From contig JAJZGH010000200.1 in assembly GCA_021798635.1 (NCBI GenBank), forward strand, positions 1 to 9,418: DNA of 9,418 nucleotides, given 5' to 3'. The notes below the pieces were generated by a model. The model did not search any database. It had not been told where the DNA came from and saw only the letters and a list, made by a program, of their open reading frames with translations. The DNA is from Planctomycetota bacterium. Lineage in GTDB: Bacteria > Planctomycetota > Phycisphaerae > WQYP01. The position numbers and the translations under genes are program-made. Positions 2,084 through 9,394 of the stretch are shown one piece after another. How positions within the stretch are numbered: position 1 is the stretch's first letter; every line of letters starts with the position of its first letter.

Positions 2084-2189
2084 GTTTATCCTAAAAGCAC
2101 CTATACGTCCAGCGATCAGGTGCCCTTTGCGCGCCTGACCTTGGCAAACATGCGGAGCCGCGTGGCAGCGCGCGGAAGCAGGTACAGGG

Positions 2190-2217
2190 GTGACAATTCG
2201 CGCCAGACGGTTACAAT
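2190..2217 (+). promoter_or_regulatory. Sigma70-like promoter of acpS
   Basis: GTGACA (2190-2195) and TACAAT (2212-2217) each match the consensus at 5 of 6 positions and are 16 nt apart. Transcription would start near 2224, leaving a leader of about 34 nt before the acpS ATG at 2258. The word ACAATTCG occurs twice, at 2193-2200 and 2213-2220, a 20-nt period that could also be a paired binding site. Confidence 0.6.
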
Positions 2218-2257
2218 TCGGGCATATTGCTTGGAAAGATTCCTGGTGAGTTCAGCA

Positions 2258-2641
2258 ATGGCAATTATTGGACATGGGGTGGACGTGGTGGATATTGGGC
2301 GTATTAACGCCATGATTGAGAACCATGGAGAGCACTTTTTGCATCGCTGCTTCACCGCCGGCGAAACTGACTATTGCCGGGCGAACCGCGACTTTGCAAC
2401 CCATTTTGCCGGACGCTTTGCCGCCAAAGAAGCGATTGTAAAAGCATTGGGCACCGGGTTTCGCGGACGCATTGCCTGGACCGATATGGAAATTCTTCCC
2501 GACTCCAAAGGTAAACCCGTGCTGCGACTAACCGGTCACACCGCCGCGCTGGCCGAGCAGGCCGGCATCACCGCCTGGCATATTTCCATTTCTCACACGG
2601 CTCAGGTGGCCTTCGCCAGCGCCATTGCTGAGCGGTTTTAA
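2258..2641 (+). CDS. acpS: Holo-[acyl-carrier-protein] synthase
   Basis: Transfers the 4'-phosphopantetheine group from CoA to the serine of apo acyl carrier protein, activating it for fatty-acid synthesis; cytoplasmic and normally a trimer. The 127-residue product is of usual length for the short AcpS family. Its hallmarks are in order: GHGVDVVDI near the N-terminus with metal-binding Asp9; [18 protein letters not shown] at 50-67 with metal-binding Glu58 after Lys57; and WHISISHT at 107-114, where the SxSH element helps bind CoA. The start is placed at 2258 because the family motif begins five residues later, GGTGAG lies 7 nt upstream, and a good promoter sits at 2190-2217. An ATG at 2120 would add 46 unrelated residues encoded across that promoter. 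The gene converges on rhaM and overlaps it by 4 bp. Confidence 0.95.
2638..2641. other. Shared TTAA stop codons of convergent acpS and rhaM
   Basis: The palindrome TTAA supplies TAA for acpS on the plus strand (2639-2641) and TAA for rhaM on the minus strand (2638-2640). No intergenic space is left for a terminator, so each transcript must run at least some way antisense into the other gene before ending. Confidence 0.9.
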
Positions 2642-3104: not shown

Positions 3105-6100
3105 TTACGCCTCAAATTCCAGCAGCAGATCATTGGACGCCACGTTCATGCCCGGCTGGACCAGAATCTTGCCGATTTTGCCATCGCGGGGGCTGTAGAC
3201 CGCCGTTTCCATTTTCATGGCTTCAATAGAAAGCAATTTATCACCGCGCGCAACACTTTGCCCCAAGCTCACTGCCAGTGCGGAAATTTTCCCGGGCATC
3301 GGTGCGCCAATATGCGCGGGATTGTCCCGCTCCGCTTTGGGCATTTGCACACGGGCTTTGCCGCTTAATGATTTATCAGCAACTTTGACCTCCCGCGGCT
3401 GGCCGTTAAGTTCAAAGAATACGGTTCTCATGCCATCGGGGTCAGGATCACCAACCGTCAGGAATTTCACCAGCATGATTTTTCCCGGCTCAAGTTCAAT
3501 GGGCACTTCAGCGTAGGGCTGCATGGGATAAAAGAACGCCGGGGTAGGCAGCACACTGACGTTGTCATGCTGCTTGCGGAAGCGCTCAAACTGGGTAAAC
3601 ACCTCGGGGTACATCAGATAACTTGCCAAGTCTGTAGCGCTGATTTCGCGGTGTAATTTGTGGGCGGCTTCCTTATTGGCGGCCTCAAGATCAACGGGAT
3701 CCAGTTTCGCGCCGGGCCGGGCGGTAATCGGAGCTTTCCCGCGCAAAATAATTTTCTGCAATTTCTTCGGCCAGCCGCCGGGCGGTTGCCCAAGATCACC
3801 CCGGATCATATCCACAACACTTTTCGGAAAATCAATATGCCGTGATTCATCCAGCACATCCTGGGGTTCCAGATTATTGGTGACCATAAACAGCGCCATA
3901 TCGCCGACAACTTTGCTGGACGGCGTGACTTTGACAATATCGCCAAAGAGCTGATTGACCTTCTGGTACATCGCGGCAATTTCATTCCACCGGTCCGCCA
4001 AGCCCACGCTCTTGGCCTGCACGCGCAAGTTGGTGTATTGTCCGCCGGGCATTTCATGTTCATACACTGAAGCCGTGCCGGCCAGCATCCCTTCTTCAAA
4101 CGGTTGATAGAACCGCCGCACCGCTTCCCAATAATCCGCCAGTTGGGCCAGAGCGGTTTGATCCAGACCGCTGTCGCGCGGTGTGTGGGCCAACGCGGCC
4201 ACCAGCGAATTCATATTGGGCTGGCTGGTCATGCCGCTCAGGGAACTTACGGCCGCGTCAACGATATTCACGCCCGCTTCCGCCGCCAGCAGCAAACTGG
4301 CGGCCTGCACGCCGGCGGTATCATGGGTGTGGAAATGAATGGGCAAGCCCACTTCATTTTTCAGCGCCTTAACCAGCTTTTGCGCTGCCAACGGCCGGCA
4401 CAGCCCCGCCATATCCTTAATGCCCAGGATATGCGTGCCCATTTTCTCCAGTTCTTTGGCCATGGCGATGTAATATTTCAGGGAATATTTTTCCCGCCGC
4501 GGGTTGAGGATATCGCCGGTATAGCATATCGCGGCCTCCAGGATGGCTCCGCTTTCCACGACCGCATCCATGGCCACGCGCATATTGCGCGTCCAGTTCA
4601 GCGAATCAAACACGCGGAACACGTCAATGCCATTGGCGGCCGCCTGCTGCACAAAATATTTCACCACATTATCGGGATAATTGGTGTATCCAACCGCATT
4701 GCTGGCGCGCAAAAGCATTTGGAACAGCAAATTAGGCGCACGTGACCGCAACTCCGCCAAGCGCTGCCAGGGGTCTTCATGCAAGAATCGCATGGCGGTA
4801 TCAAAGGTGGCTCCGCCCCACATTTCCACACTGAACAAATTCGGCAGCAAATGGGCCATGGCCTGGGCCGGCGGGAGCATATCAATGGTGCGCATGCGTG
4901 TGGCCAGCAGCGATTGATGCGCATCGCGCATGGTGGTGTCGGTAAACATCAGAGCTTTTTGTTTGGTCAGCCATTGGGAAAAATTTACAGCGCCCATTTC
5001 CTTGAAGCGATCACGCATGCCCGGCGGCAGCGGCTGATTCTGCGGATAGACCAGCGTCGGTGGCGGGGTCATGACGGAAAGATCCGGTGTGCGTTTGACC
5101 TCCGGTGAGCCGTTGACAATGATGTCGCCCAGATAGGTAAGCAACTTGGTGGCGCGATCGCGCCGGGCGGAAAACCGGAACAGGGCCGGGGTGTTATCAA
5201 CAAATGTTGTTGTGGCGGCCCCGGAGGCAAACGTGGGGTGCTGTACCAGATTTTCCAGAAAGGGGATATTGGTTTTTACGCCGCGCACGCGGAATTCGGA
5301 CAGGGCACGCAGCGTGCGGGCCACGGATTCCTCAAGCGTGGGAGCAAAGCAGGTGAGCTTGACCAAAAGCGAATCAAAGTAAGGCGTAATAACCGCACCG
5401 GTGTAGGCGGTCCCGCCGTCCAGCCGCACGCCAAAGCCGGCCGGTGAGCGGTAACTGGTGATGCGGCCATAGTCGGGAATGAAATGATTACTGGCATCCT
5501 CCGAGGTAATCCGGCATTGCAGCGCCACGCCCCGGTGGGTGATTTTATCCTGCGTGGGAATCTGAATTTCCGGCCCATGGAGGTTGTGTCCCTGCGCCAC
5601 GCGAATTTGTGATTTCACCAGATCAATGCCGGTGATAATTTCCGTTACGGTGTGTTCCACCTGAATACGTGGGTTGACTTCAATAAAGAAAAATTCCCCG
5701 CTGTCCACATCCACCAGAAATTCCACCGTGCCGGCATTGCGGTAATTCACCTGCCGCCCGATGGCCACCGCCGCATCACAAATTCTGGTCCGCAGATCTT
5801 CCGGCAGCCCCACGCTGGGTGCCAGTTCCACCACTTTCTGATGGCGACGTTGCACGGAACAATCCCGTTCATATAAATGAACCAGATTGCCATGGGCATC
5901 GCCTAACAACTGCACTTCAATATGCTTGGCGGTGGTGATGTAGCGTTCCAGAAACACTTCGGATTTGCCAAACGCTCCGCCCGCTTCACGCTGGGCTTCT
6001 TCCAATTTCGCGCTTAGTTCACTGGCCTGGTGCACCACGCGCATGCCCCGGCCGCCGCCGCCAAAGCTGGCCTTAATAATCAGCGGAAAGCCGATGTCTT

Positions 6101-6545
6101 TCGCCATTTTTTTTATTTTCGCCGGATCGGTCACGCCATGTTCGGTTCCTGGCAATACCGGGGCACCGGCCAGCTGCGCAATGCGCCGGGCGGCGGTTTT
6201 ATCCCCAAAATCGCGCAGCATATCAGGCGTCGGCCCGACAAACGTAATGCCCGCGGCTTCACACGCGGCGGCGAATTCCGCATTTTCTGATAGAAAGCCG
6301 TAGCCGGGGTGAATGGCATCCACCTCATGGGCTTTGGCAATATCAATAATGGCGGGGATATTGAGGTAATTCTTCACCGGCGCATCCGGCCCGCCAACCT
6401 GATAGCTTTCATCCGCCTTAAAGCGATGCAGACAATAGCGATCTTCATACGTATATATGGCGACGGTGGACAGCCCCAATTCCGTGGCGGCACGTAACAC
6501 GCGGATGGCAATTTCACTGCGATTGGCAACCAGCAACTTTTTCAT
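3105..6545 (-). CDS. pyc: Pyruvate carboxylase, single-chain
   Basis: Biotin enzyme converting pyruvate, bicarbonate and ATP to oxaloacetate, an anaplerotic and gluconeogenic step in the cytoplasm. At 1146 residues it is full length. The biotin carboxylase part is residues 1-450: start MKKLLVANRSEIA, Lys158 and the Gly-rich ATP-grasp loop FGGGGRGM (161-168), and FIEVNPRIQVEHTVTE (287-302). Residues about 451-527 are the linker/allosteric region. The carboxyltransferase follows: FTDTTMRDAHQS with metal ligand Asp536, GIKDMAG with Lys710 (the lysine that becomes carboxylated), HTH with His739 and His741, and Thr874 in KVTPSSKVVGD. The C-terminal biotin carrier domain has AMKMET with biotinyl Lys1111. 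All key residues are intact. GAGGAA lies 8-9 nt before the ATG. Acetyl-CoA activation is usual for this form but not visible here. The gene is divergent from the sigma factor gene. Confidence 0.98.
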   Translation of the reverse strand: MKKLLVANRSEIAIRVLRAATELGLSTVAIYTYEDRYCLHRFKADESYQVGGPDAPVKNYLNIPAIIDIAKAHEVDAIHPGYGFLSENAEFAAACEAAGITFVGPTPDMLRDFGDKTAARRIAQLAGAPVLPGTEHGVTDPAKIKKMAKDIGFPLIIKASFGGGGRGMRVVHQASELSAKLEEAQREAGGAFGKSEVFLERYITTAKHIEVQLLGDAHGNLVHLYERDCSVQRRHQKVVELAPSVGLPEDLRTRICDAAVAIGRQVNYRNAGTVEFLVDVDSGEFFFIEVNPRIQVEHTVTEIITGIDLVKSQIRVAQGHNLHGPEIQIPTQDKITHRGVALQCRITSEDASNHFIPDYGRITSYRSPAGFGVRLDGGTAYTGAVITPYFDSLLVKLTCFAPTLEESVARTLRALSEFRVRGVKTNIPFLENLVQHPTFASGAATTTFVDNTPALFRFSARRDRATKLLTYLGDIIVNGSPEVKRTPDLSVMTPPPTLVYPQNQPLPPGMRDRFKEMGAVNFSQWLTKQKALMFTDTTMRDAHQSLLATRMRTIDMLPPAQAMAHLLPNLFSVEMWGGATFDTAMRFLHEDPWQRLAELRSRAPNLLFQMLLRASNAVGYTNYPDNVVKYFVQQAAANGIDVFRVFDSLNWTRNMRVAMDAVVESGAILEAAICYTGDILNPRREKYSLKYYIAMAKELEKMGTHILGIKDMAGLCRPLAAQKLVKALKNEVGLPIHFHTHDTAGVQAASLLLAAEAGVNIVDAAVSSLSGMTSQPNMNSLVAALAHTPRDSGLDQTALAQLADYWEAVRRFYQPFEEGMLAGTASVYEHEMPGGQYTNLRVQAKSVGLADRWNEIAAMYQKVNQLFGDIVKVTPSSKVVGDMALFMVTNNLEPQDVLDESRHIDFPKSVVDMIRGDLGQPPGGWPKKLQKIILRGKAPITARPGAKLDPVDLEAANKEAAHKLHREISATDLASYLMYPEVFTQFERFRKQHDNVSVLPTPAFFYPMQPYAEVPIELEPGKIMLVKFLTVGDPDPDGMRTVFFELNGQPREVKVADKSLSGKARVQMPKAERDNPAHIGAPMPGKISALAVSLGQSVARGDKLLSIEAMKMETAVYSPRDGKIGKILVQPGMNVASNDLLLEFEA

Positions 6546-6760
6546 TTCAAATGTTCCTCAAGCTTCTCAATACATCCGGATTCTATCGGGGTAGCCGCGG
6601 AAAGGGGGGTAAAATACACCCTGCCTCAACGCCGCCATTACCCGCTGGGCCAGAATAGCCGAAATTATCAGATTCGTTAAGAGATGGTGCGGCCAAAAAG
6701 AAAAAAATGTCCCGAATTGGATCGGCGTGACATAATACTATTAGGAACGGAGTTTTTCGG
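6546..6760. other. Divergent intergenic region pyc / sigma factor
   Basis: This 215-bp gap carries the pyc leader and candidate promoter on the left. On the right is a purine run of almost only A (6695-6707) followed by CATAATACTAT (6731-6741), the most -10-like sequence ahead of the sigma gene. No convincing -35 stands at the right distance; TTGGAT (6717-6722) is too close. The A-tract may act as an upstream-element-like bend. GGAG (6749-6752) is the sigma gene's ribosome binding site. Confidence 0.4.
6652..6680 (-). promoter_or_regulatory. Candidate promoter of pyc
   Basis: Minus-strand TTAACG (6675-6680) is followed after exactly 17 nt by TATTCT (6652-6657), each matching sigma70 consensus at 4 of 6 positions. 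Transcription would start near 6645, giving a leader of about 100 nt. The -35-like hexamer lies in the 11-nt word CTTAACGAATC, also found in the E2 candidate promoter with the same 17-nt spacing. Confidence 0.4.
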
Positions 6761-9394
6761 ATGAATGATGACCGCGCTACGCCAGAGTCGCAGGCCGATG
6801 GATGCGGTGGGGAACTGCCGTTGTTGGTTCGGCAGCATCTGGATTGGGTTTATTCGTTGTGTCGGCGGTCCGTGCGTGATGCGGCGATGGCTGAGGACGT
6901 CACGCAAACGGTATTCATGGTTTTGATAAAAAAAGCGAAGCATTTGCCGCAGGGGGTTAATATGCCGGGCTGGTTGTTTAAGACCGCGCGTTACTGCTGC
7001 CGCAGTGCGCTGCGTGATGCGCAGACGCGGCGGCGACATGAATTTACAGCGGGCAGCCGACGGGCTGAATCAGTGCTGGAGGCACCAACGCCGGAAGAGG
7101 ACCTCCAAGAGGAACTTCTGCCGCTGCTGGACGAACACCTTGCAGCTCTGGGCGAGGCGGATCGAGCCGCAGTGCTGCTGCGCTATTACCAGCGGTGCAG
7201 TTTCGCCGAAGTCGGTATGCAATTGGGCCTCAGTGAAGAAGCAGCAAAAAAACGGGTGCAGCGTGCGGTGGAAAAGCTGCGTGCACGCATGACAGCGAAA
7301 GGCGTGGCTCTGAGTGATGGCGCTCTGGCAGCCATGCTGACTGAAAAACTCGTGCAACCCGCGCCTGCGAAACTGGCGGCAGCGGTGCTGGCACATGCGG
7401 CCCACGGGACCGCGGCAACAGCCCTGTCCGCAGGGCAGGAAAAACTTGTAGCAAAACTGGCGATGAAAACAGCCAGCGGCAGCAAAGTTGCGATTGGAGC
7501 CGCGGGAGTTGTGTTGGCGGTGGGGCTGGTCGCCACGGGCGTGGCTGCGGTGCTGGCAAATCACAAGCGATCCGCGCCCCTGCCGCCAAGGGTTGCAGCG
7601 ATTCCCGCGCCCCGGCTGGCCGCTCCGATGCTCGCCGCTACTGCAAAACCGCCCATGTTAACGCAAGCTCAATGGGGGGCGGTGTTTCAGGCGTATGCTC
7701 GCAAAATTCGGGCGATAAGTATGAGAGCGACGTTCGTGACGCGCAATTATACCAGCCGGAGGTGGATACGTAATTTCCGGGCGGCTATAAAGAAAGGCGA
7801 CCTGAAGCATTGGCGGCAATCAATGCTGGGGATCGCGGCCGGCTGGCACACCCGAACCGAGGCGGTAAATTTAAAGTGGGATGTGCCGGGCAGGCTGGTC
7901 AAATACCAGACAGTCGGAGATGCTAATTTTATTTTTCACAATGCCAGCGGCAAGGCTGAATTAGGCCGCGCGATGGATGCGAATGAATGGGTCATCGGGC
8001 GACACCGCGTGTGGCAAGCCGATCCGGAGCTCGAGCAAAACGGCAAAGTGTTGAGTTCCCAGTGGAGCACGACTCTGTACCGCCGCAGCGACACGCCACG
8101 ATCCCGTTTTGACTGGATGGCTGCCTGGGGGGAGGAACTTCCCGAATGGAAAATGCCCTTAGCAAACCAGAAGATGCGAAGACTGGAACACGCCTGGGTG
8201 CCCTTGGTGGTGCGATATACCAACGGGGAGCTTAATCCGCTCCAAGCCGGCCCCTTTGGCTACCGCCTGATTCGCCAGGGCCTCGACCGATCCACAAGCC
8301 ACGTCGAACTAACTTATCTGATCCTACGCAAGCGGAAACCATTGGGCGTCACTTTTTACGGAAAACCAACGGACGCATTATGGGAGATACGGGACGAAGT
8401 CGGGCTTGTGGGGGGCTTACGGATATACCGGGAAAGCCTTTTCGAGGAGAGACCGGGAGTGCGAAAGCGAAGTTGGCAAGCGGATTTCAGCCGTTTCAAA
8501 AGAACTGGGGGTGTCTGGTTTCCCACGCGGATTCACGAGCGGGATTGGTACCGGATAGCACGGCACGATAGGGTCACTCCCCTGAAAAATCGTCTGCAGA
8601 TAGACTGCCACATCGCCGTCAGTCGGCTATCTATCACCCACGCCCTTCCGGCGGGAGCGTTCACCTATTTTCCGCCTTCCGGAGGGTCCATTACCGATGT
8701 GCCGCGCGGCATCCAGTATTATCCTGATACGCCGGATTTGCCGGAACTTATCAACAAAGCAACCCCCTACGGCTACGTAAAGGGGCTTGCCATGCCGGGA
8801 TCTGTGGTCCATTATTTTTTACCGGGCGTGACGCACCGGCCCAGCGCCGCTTTTACAATTAAAAATACCGTCGGCAAACTCGCGGATTTTCAGCTGCGTC
8901 CACAGGGAAATGCAGTGGCTGTCTCTCCACCAGCTTTCACGCTTCTCCCCGGCGGATCGCAGCAGATTCATATCACCATGAAGAAACCACCCGGCGACCG
9001 GCCGTATTGCTTTTATCTATCGCTTACGGGCCGCCGCGCTCCCCCGGCGCAGCGCAGGCTGTCCACCACCGTGCCGGTTTTCTTCCTACCTTCGCCAGCG
9101 CTGGGAGCCAAACCGGGGAGCATTATTTTGAATCCCCGTAATTTCGTCGGCCGGCAGAGTTATTCCATCACACTGCAATTCCTGCGCCCTCTGGGCGGCA
9201 GTGCCGTGGTGGATATGATCAAACCGGGCAGCCGATCCGTGGCTGTCCCCCACTGGTCGCAGAAAAGTATGAATGTGGTGATCAGGCCCGCTGCGGGTGC
9301 CACAGCGATATTCTCTCACGTTACCGTTCTGTACACGTACAACGGCCACCTGGAGAAAATGCGCATCCCGGTAATTGGGCTGCGGCCCAATTGA
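6761..9394 (+). CDS. Membrane-tethered ECF-type sigma factor with large extracytoplasmic sensor-like region
   Basis: The 877-residue product is about four times a normal ECF sigma factor. Residues about 18-95 are sigma region 2 (AAMAEDVTQTVFMVL, then MPGWLFKTAR). Residues about 118-176 are sigma region 4, with a helix-turn-helix in FAEVGMQLGLSEEAAKKRVQ. A helical, Ala-rich linker (about 178-235) leads to a single hydrophobic helix at about 243-266, preceded by lysines. Residues 267-300 are a Pro/Ala spacer. Residues about 300-690 are predicted outside the cytoplasm, Trp- and Arg-rich, and contain ADFSRFKRTGGVWFPTR (574-590) and then a segment ending in a Gly-x-x-x-x-Asp turn (GGSITD), a pattern I associate with LolA/RseB-like beta sheets. 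Residues about 695-775 and 784-875 look like two Ig-like domains. GGAG lies 8 nt before the ATG. Sigma and membrane assignments are firm; the outer fold and sensing role are inferred. No anti-sigma gene is in view. Confidence 0.85.
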   Translation: MNDDRATPESQADGCGGELPLLVRQHLDWVYSLCRRSVRDAAMAEDVTQTVFMVLIKKAKHLPQGVNMPGWLFKTARYCCRSALRDAQTRRRHEFTAGSRRAESVLEAPTPEEDLQEELLPLLDEHLAALGEADRAAVLLRYYQRCSFAEVGMQLGLSEEAAKKRVQRAVEKLRARMTAKGVALSDGALAAMLTEKLVQPAPAKLAAAVLAHAAHGTAATALSAGQEKLVAKLAMKTASGSKVAIGAAGVVLAVGLVATGVAAVLANHKRSAPLPPRVAAIPAPRLAAPMLAATAKPPMLTQAQWGAVFQAYARKIRAISMRATFVTRNYTSRRWIRNFRAAIKKGDLKHWRQSMLGIAAGWHTRTEAVNLKWDVPGRLVKYQTVGDANFIFHNASGKAELGRAMDANEWVIGRHRVWQADPELEQNGKVLSSQWSTTLYRRSDTPRSRFDWMAAWGEELPEWKMPLANQKMRRLEHAWVPLVVRYTNGELNPLQAGPFGYRLIRQGLDRSTSHVELTYLILRKRKPLGVTFYGKPTDALWEIRDEVGLVGGLRIYRESLFEERPGVRKRSWQADFSRFKRTGGVWFPTRIHERDWYRIARHDRVTPLKNRLQIDCHIAVSRLSITHALPAGAFTYFPPSGGSITDVPRGIQYYPDTPDLPELINKATPYGYVKGLAMPGSVVHYFLPGVTHRPSAAFTIKNTVGKLADFQLRPQGNAVAVSPPAFTLLPGGSQQIHITMKKPPGDRPYCFYLSLTGRRAPPAQRRLSTTVPVFFLPSPALGAKPGSIILNPRNFVGRQSYSITLQFLRPLGGSAVVDMIKPGSRSVAVPHWSQKSMNVVIRPAAGATAIFSHVTVLYTYNGHLEKMRIPVIGLRPN

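Follow-up and report, generated by a model that had tools for sequence, protein, structure and literature searches.

How does a complete sigma factor come to share one polypeptide with a membrane anchor and a large outer region, and what would such a protein do? The question is raised by a gene on contig JAJZGH010000200.1 of a Planctomycetota bacterium (assembly GCA_021798635.1); the window analysed here is the whole stretch of 9,418 nucleotides. The open reading frame (ORF) starts with ATG, contains no internal stop and encodes a sigma module, a single transmembrane (TM) segment and two outer domains, A and B (Table 1). Sigma70_r2 and Sigma70_r4 are both above their Pfam cut-offs and TIGR02937 scores 80.4 bits (cut-off 42.9), so that sigma2 and sigma4 are present without sigma3, as in extracytoplasmic function (ECF) sigma factors. 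The sequence-only reading of this DNA had proposed a complete sigma2/sigma4 pair, one membrane helix at about residues 243-266 and some 610 further residues in one protein; this was upheld by the intact frame, Pfam, homologues and a hydropathy scan, which called one TM segment with approximately 612 residues C-terminal of it. We consider it probable, with appreciable doubt, that the protein is a membrane-tethered ECF sigma factor acting as an autoregulated one-protein envelope sensor, which intramembrane proteolysis would set free when an envelope signal arrives.

We searched for homologues using residues 180-877 and found five other proteins, at 85, 80, 80, 57 and 37% identity, in which, as far as each extends, the order of the parts is retained, as the sequence-only reading had asked to be checked. 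P0002, P0003, P0005 and P0006 span the TM segment (P0006 begins past sigma2), and P0004, one of the two at 80%, is a fragment whose first residue falls within it. Two of the five lie on contigs of other metagenome-assembled genomes, referred to as L001 (Planctomycetota) and L002 (Phycisphaerales). A search with residues 1-290 added P0024, whose profile matches to A (E 2e-32) and to B (E 5e-84) make it a further sigma–A–B protein. Among the window, L001 and L002, the ratio of non-synonymous to synonymous substitution rates (dN/dS) is lowest in sigma2 and sigma4 (Table 1), with values of 0.30-0.42 for A and 0.31-0.46 for B. Because the homologues keep the order of parts and sigma2 and sigma4 are the most constrained, a frameshift chimera is ruled out, and at the level of sequence we regard a single genuine protein as confirmed.

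On the model of a stand-alone homologue, P0079, domain A has the LolA/LolB fold. When this AlphaFold2 (AF2) model was compared with the PDB using Foldseek, the top 15 rows were all LolA, LolB or LolA-superfamily structures. The hhalign comparison of A with a planctomycete LolA-like set gave 82% over 37 columns, and five unrelated profiles gave at most 0.1%. Several observations weigh against the assignment. P0079 is 36% identical and its model has a mean predicted local distance difference test score (pLDDT) of 61; the Foldseek rows have TM-scores of 0.24-0.34 (query) and 0.42-0.50 (target) at a root-mean-square deviation of 7-14 Å; AF2 applied to window residues 296-877 with seven sequences gave a mean pLDDT of 36; and two other LolA-like sets matched A at 33% (a second set) and 1.2% (PF17131, itself LolA-like). 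No Pfam or NCBIfam family was over its cut-off on domain A, TIGR00547 (lolA) reaching E 0.22 in one of 11 members. A sequence comparison of the A profile with solved structures gave no convincing match, and the best hit (E 0.81) was to something other than LolA. The earlier description of the outer region as LolA/RseB-like therefore stands for the LolA/LolB fold by way of the P0079 model, and fails to find a confident model in the window's own residues.

Domain B is colinear in hmmsearch with positions 154-349 of the B profile, which are the last two domains of DUF1573-type B proteins; outside this range only one insignificant 10-residue piece aligned, and hhalign against six other profiles gave 4.8% or less. 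Stand-alone B proteins have about 355 residues and consist of an N-terminal TM segment, a DUF1573/HYDIN-type immunoglobulin (Ig) domain and two further domains. The DUF1573 domain itself, matched by PF07610 at residues about 45-120 of stand-alone B, is not present in the window. Run on the whole window protein, Pfam found no match over cut-off C-terminal of sigma4; a weak HYDIN-type Ig hint at residues 694-740 (E 0.02) is below it. The two Ig-like repeats of the sequence-only reading are thus borne out by homology to DUF1573-type proteins, not by a confident model.

A and B also occur as neighbouring genes. B directly follows A in six of the seven distinct loci in which the next gene was read (L038, L039, L040, L044, L045 and L043, the last with a short B of 188 residues), and another gene follows A in L041. 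PF07610 or PF22544 is over cut-off beside A in L022, L028, L030 and L033 and below it in L036. Because A and B are adjacent in relatives and the match to B is colinear, the window protein is an A–B gene pair placed behind a sigma–TM module, minus the TM segment and first Ig domain of B. Four loci have MauE 3' of B and, ahead of A, a gene of propeller type, which Pfam assigns to Reg_prop in L038. This row of propeller-type gene, LolA-like A, DUF1573-type B and MauE (L038:5507-13863, L039, L040 and L044) includes a small membrane protein in three of four cases and a DUF1559 pilin-like gene in three of four; it perhaps performs envelope redox or lipoprotein work. Stand-alone A proteins mostly begin with a hydrophobic leader, judged by eye, and all five full-length stand-alone B proteins have an N-terminal TM segment; given these leaders and segments, A and B, and with them the C-terminal part of the window protein, should lie outside the membrane. 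The Pro/Ala-rich stalk would be a candidate site-1 cleavage region.

Less expected than the layout is that domain A was exchanged between close relatives. Between the window and L002, the fraction of changed synonymous sites is 0.10-0.55 before residue 400 and past residue 680 and 0.57-0.86 at residues 401-680; between L001 and L002 it is 0.58-0.95 at residues 361-640 and at most 0.46 elsewhere, and between the window and L001 it stays at 0.08-0.40 along the whole gene. Synonymous divergence (dS) between the window and L002 stands at 1.32 for A; it is 0.33-0.48 for sigma, linkers, TM segment and B, 0.95 for the short Pro stalk and 0.32 for the neighbouring pyruvate carboxylase gene (pyc). We conclude that A was replaced as a unit.

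Upstream of the gene lies a promoter-like element with hexamers TGTCCC (6708-6713) and CATAAT (6731-6736). Across the family these read TGTCCV and CATAWW at 17 bp, the ordinary promoter spacing; a short leader precedes the window's ATG. We drew the pattern TGTCCVGAATY-N9-KGNCATAW from 17 upstream regions read side by side; with at most one mismatch it is found at or ahead of the start in 14 of the 17 sigma–TM genes (395 bp ahead in L001), and L115:9116 carries the element with two mismatches. The window holds one exact copy, with 0.01 expected at two mismatches for a pattern partly drawn from this site. Scanning ten genomes at up to one mismatch returned 21 matches, all in five genomes, and none for the reversed pattern. 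Counting distinct instances (identical contexts merged, window included) also gives 21, of which 15 stand directly before a sigma–TM ORF, meaning that its start lies within about 45 bp or in frame, or in L001 367 bp past the element; two more precede a DUF1559 pilin-like gene in sigma–TM clusters. Over these 15 instances (13 once reduced at 85% identity), the commonest base has a mean frequency of 0.92 for block one, 0.78 for block two, 0.54 for the spacer and 0.52-0.55 for the flanks. The element precedes fusions of A+B, EXT2, EXT3, EXT4 (three other ectodomain types) and unassigned types, and both of two sigma lineages. Shared or mutual autoregulation is the best explanation, because the element is common to fusions whatever their ectodomain or sigma lineage.

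Some findings weigh against a promoter. Four of the 21 distinct instances precede neither a sigma nor a pilin gene, and the block frequencies are inflated, because the pattern that collected the instances had itself been derived from them. Five of the ten genomes lack the element, including G022 and G027, and the sigma–TM genes L127 and L128 show six and seven mismatches. In some paralogues the ATG of the element opens the sigma ORF (MSGI...), and part of the family may use the element as coding sequence; in the window the frame from this ATG stops after seven codons. We also observed two elements with no sigma gene after them in L002 (12318-12345 and 10921-10948, forward strand), one before a PIN-like ORF and one before a pilin-like gene, which are either remnants of sigma genes since lost or genuine additional targets. 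In support of the likely ribosome-binding site, the sequence GGAACGGAGTTTTTC is common to the window and L001, though most DNA farther upstream differs.

EXT3 was found with the window-like sigma in 13 rows and with the second sigma lineage in one, EXT4 with the second lineage in six and the window-like in one, and EXT2 with the second lineage in four and the window-like in one, a weak match (25%); some of these rows are one gene under two names. A syntenic comparison bears on how such combinations arise. L001 15159-22592 (genome G001) is colinear with contig C166 of G002, with stretches of 88-98% DNA identity; the block extends over L001:15045-22592 and L046:11725-18000. At this locus EXT3 and EXT4 belong to sigma–TM fusions in G002 and carry a hydrophobic leader in G001 (L001:15045-16736 and 16980-18656). 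The EXT4 flanks align (L001 17040-18424 and 18847-19591 with L046 16862-15478 and 14529-13785), and the differing stretch, L046 14530-15477, consists of the promoter-like element and the sigma–TM coding part. The same ectodomain gene thus stands in an orthologous place with or without a sigma–TM cassette, by gain in G002 or loss in G001. Upstream of the sigma-free forms in L001, sigma remnants amount to short matches only. G001 has two full pyc genes and may be a mixed bin, so that statements on G001 call for caution. At the pyc locus of G001 the flank known from the window is retained as far as about position 6695, where other genes take over, the fusion being on another contig. Because of the syntenic comparison we give greater weight to the view that a cassette of promoter element and sigma–TM part, held constant by selection, is recombined before, or away from, different secreted envelope proteins, forming a polymorphic sensor system; we hold this tentatively, slightly short of an even call. 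If it is true, many outside events would feed one shared autoregulated promoter class, the window's sensor being the LolA-like domain with its Ig pair. A self-mobile fusion gene was considered and dropped, as only the left border, towards pyc, was seen rearranged.

Other copies in these genomes are arranged in further ways. In L115 of G026 (reverse strand), EXT4-like genes without sigma (3341-5017 and 5056-6714) lie downstream of a sigma–TM–EXT4 fusion (6753-9152), separated by 38-bp gaps; their products have hydrophobic leaders by eye, as if a tethered sensor and free ectodomain copies formed an operon. L001:13027-14658 and 15045-16736 (forward strand) are an EXT3-type pair with about 90 near-identical N-terminal residues and a widely different remainder, that is, a mosaic. 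A sigma–TM fusion with CarboxypepD_reg-like and thioredoxin-like parts is seemingly split in two frames in L002 (8161-8517 and 8566-10578, reverse strand); it has intact relatives, L115:12196-14601 and a copy in L049 whose AhpC-TSA match is just below cut-off. G026:C174:14946-15089 (reverse strand) encodes a 48-residue scrap that matches the end of domain B at 71% identity and includes an in-frame stop, perhaps what is left of a window-type gene next to the G026 cluster.

Computation supports the anatomy, the constraint, the fusion history, the exchanged ectodomains and the shared element; topology, ligand, cleavage and transcription we infer. In the mechanism that we favour, the LolA-like pocket would bind a hydrophobic envelope ligand, and binding would make the Pro-rich stalk accessible to a site-1 protease. 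The TM segment would next be cut by a site-2 protease, freeing the sigma factor, which would transcribe its own gene and its paralogues from the TGTCCVGAAT/CATAWW element, and each ectodomain would thereby report to a common promoter class. The interpretation offered by the sequence-only reading, of a cascade folded into one polypeptide, is partly supported. M50 and S41 proteases were found in all four genomes; this is weak support, as control genomes have them too (14 of 14 and 10 of 14). Fusion-bearing contigs carry ORFs of M50, the site-2 protease family, in G002:C166 (L046:7879-8889) and G001:C197:32782-33162, the former some 5.7 kb away from the closest fusion; immediately next to the fusions read, no protease gene was recognised. 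No anti-sigma family was found by Pfam in the window protein or in the linkers, and no anti-sigma partner was seen, a check raised by the sequence-only reading. Genome-wide, where the search covered the zf-HC2 family only, G001, G002 and G026 each have one such protein, on contigs other than those of the fusions, and G024 has none.

The outside part may instead be a working module for lipid or lipoprotein handling, together with B, MauE and the propeller, on which the sigma factor reports, making it a sensor of assembly and not of stress. A separate sigma–TM gene (370-394 residues) does share a row with propeller and DUF1573 genes in L127 (G022) and L128 (G027), the latter row also holding MauE and pilin, and sigma-free ectodomains with hydrophobic leaders adjoin fusions in L115 and L001. 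However, hhalign does not recognise the gene in the A slot as A in either L127 (27.6%) or L128 (0.6%), and in four other A–B–MauE rows the part that was read contains no sigma gene; we consider an assembly sensor unlikely, if well worth keeping in view.

The main rival to proteolytic release holds that the sigma factor stays tethered and acts at the membrane, the ectodomain altering its oligomeric state or its access to polymerase. ToxR and CadC are one-component membrane transcription factors, to which such a protein may be likened. In favour of this view, 77 sigma–TM proteins retain the length and in part the sequence of the linker joining sigma4 to the TM segment, as if tethering matters: P202, L205 and K242 are the commonest residue in 69 of 77, 65 of 76 and 55 of 76. 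The want of a recognised protease gene beside the fusions, and the distance to the M50 ORF in G002, point the same way. Against it, a sigma factor has to bind core polymerase and depart with it, M50 ORFs share contigs with fusions in G001 and G002, and IutY, a characterised protein of the same layout, requires cleavage (PMC5411451). Action without release is thus a minority prospect, and to us an improbable one. It is highly improbable that the sigma moiety is a decayed passenger serving as membrane anchor only: ectodomains are found without sigma as well, but the sigma regions have the lowest dN/dS of the protein and the sigma–TM module is accompanied by the promoter-like element. The idea of two genes fused by sequencing or assembly error, whose component parts do exist as separate genes elsewhere, is refuted by the identical fusion in other assemblies and keeps practically no credibility.

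Table 1 Features of the fusion gene and its upstream region, in window coordinates.
Feature	Residues	Position	Strand	Basis
Promoter-like element TGTCCCGAATTGGATCGGCGTGACATAA		6708..6735	+	Common upstream of sigma–TM genes with different ectodomains
GGAG, likely ribosome-binding site		6749..6752	+	8 bases 5' of ATG, from sequence
Whole gene, sigma–TM–A–B protein	877 aa	6761..9394	+	ORF reading, homologues
Sigma-70 region 2	22-88	6824..7024	+	PF04542 E 2.3e-12; dN/dS 0.10-0.20
Sigma-70 region 4	127-175	7139..7285	+	PF04545 E 4.5e-9; dN/dS 0.05-0.11
Juxtamembrane linker	179-242	7295..7486	+	Pfam matches none
Single TM segment	247-265	7499..7555	+	Hydropathy
Pro/Ala-rich stalk	267-296	7559..7648	+	Sequence
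Domain A, LolA-superfamily fold (from model)	297-655	7649..8725	+	Stand-alone homologues; AF2 model of P0079 and PDB matches
Domain B, two Ig-like domains	682-873	8804..9379	+	hmmsearch E 5.5e-15; hhalign 97.3%, E 2e-11, 190 columns

The neighbouring genes are ordinary: dihydrolipoamide acetyltransferase (cut by the window end), a carbonic anhydrase-like gene, acpS, rhamnose mutarotase (rhaM) and pyc. The order acpS–rhaM–pyc–fusion recurs in L002, and going by these relatives the source of the window is most probably a planctomycete of Phycisphaerae type. In the acpS ORF (2120-2641, forward strand) about 47 in-frame codons precede the part matching holo-ACP synthase, and the true start is probably near codon 48. 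We rejected a phage origin, as viral contigs yielded no relative, and a plasmid origin, as the plasmid search matched carboxylase genes (pyc) only.

The search with residues 1-290 scored the 7998 candidates of 482-1535 residues with most shared words, limits that favour long proteins and from which the share of extension-free sigma factors cannot be inferred. Among the matches listed, 77 proteins, query included, have the sigma–TM module. A hydrophobic segment lies within 130 residues past sigma4 in all 73 of the 77 that could be placed, the usual gap being about 45-70; some have a second such segment, and the four without a placeable sigma4 end have at least one each. By precomputed domain or source name, their ectodomains include WD40, CarboxypepD_reg, serpin, TIGR03435/PF12543, ExbD and lipoyl types; the serpin is that of P0051 (precomputed PF00079; source name serpin B). 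P0075 is an independent sigma–TM–LolA fusion, in which PF03548 (E 3.7e-6) exceeds its cut-off and TIGR03009 (E 8e-20) does not. At E≤1e-8 the sigma module was matched in 14 of 28 family genomes, with up to seven matches per genome and several clustered. That ECF sigma factors with C-terminal extensions are already known, as the sequence-only reading had stated, agrees with the 76 other proteins listed and with an ECF review (PMC8999054). Because of these and the IutY precedent, the sigma–TM–ectodomain layout is to be taken as known and the combination of LolA-like and Ig domains as a new variant; our literature search, whose scope excludes Casas-Pastor 2021, Jogler 2012 and Wiegand 2020, returned no reported sigma–LolA or sigma–DUF1573 fusion.

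According to a review (PMC8103513), characterisation of sigma factors with C-terminal extensions has only just begun. The family offers a short promoter-like element that can be tested, an ectodomain present both fused and free at a single locus, and sensors that have been exchanged naturally on the same sigma factor. In the window a LolA-like domain would be coupled to transcription without a detectable RseA/RseB pair, and if our reading is true an envelope-sensing route would be packed into a single polypeptide.

The predicted fold of domain A is like that of the LolA superfamily (LolA, LolB, DUF1329 and RseB), but the window's domain has about 350 residues, no Pfam match and a tether to a sigma factor. 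The closest counterpart in layout is IutY of Pseudomonas putida (ECF243), in which, according to PMC5411451, a cytosolic ECF sigma factor, a TM segment and a periplasmic-side domain form one polypeptide, activated by the two proteases Prc and RseP. The window protein likewise unites sigma, TM segment and another large domain; in place of IutY's periplasmic cell-surface-signalling anti-sigma domain, which answers an iron-carrier receptor, it has LolA-like and Ig domains outside, and no FecR-type family at Pfam E≤1. PMC8999054 lists sigma factors with TM extensions in ECF48, 52, 53 and 243, and with WD40 extensions in ECF57. ECF48, ECF52 and ECF53 (for example SCO4117) similarly fuse sigma to TM segment(s) and an outside domain, and proteolytic release is expected there; unlike the window protein and the five linkers scanned alone, they have a zinc-finger domain. 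ECF57 shares the long variable C-terminal extension, but its likely sigma2–sigma4 cysteine pair, C34/C141, seems incomplete in the window protein, which has C34 and R141 if the columns are equivalent; a cysteine stands at position 141 in 23 of the 77 sigma–TM proteins, with the same sigma–linker–TM layout. In Clostridium thermocellum, nine RsgI membrane regulators that sense different substrates are cut by RseP in the TM helix, according to PMC12203970; RsgI is an anti-sigma factor, whereas here the sigma factor itself is tethered.

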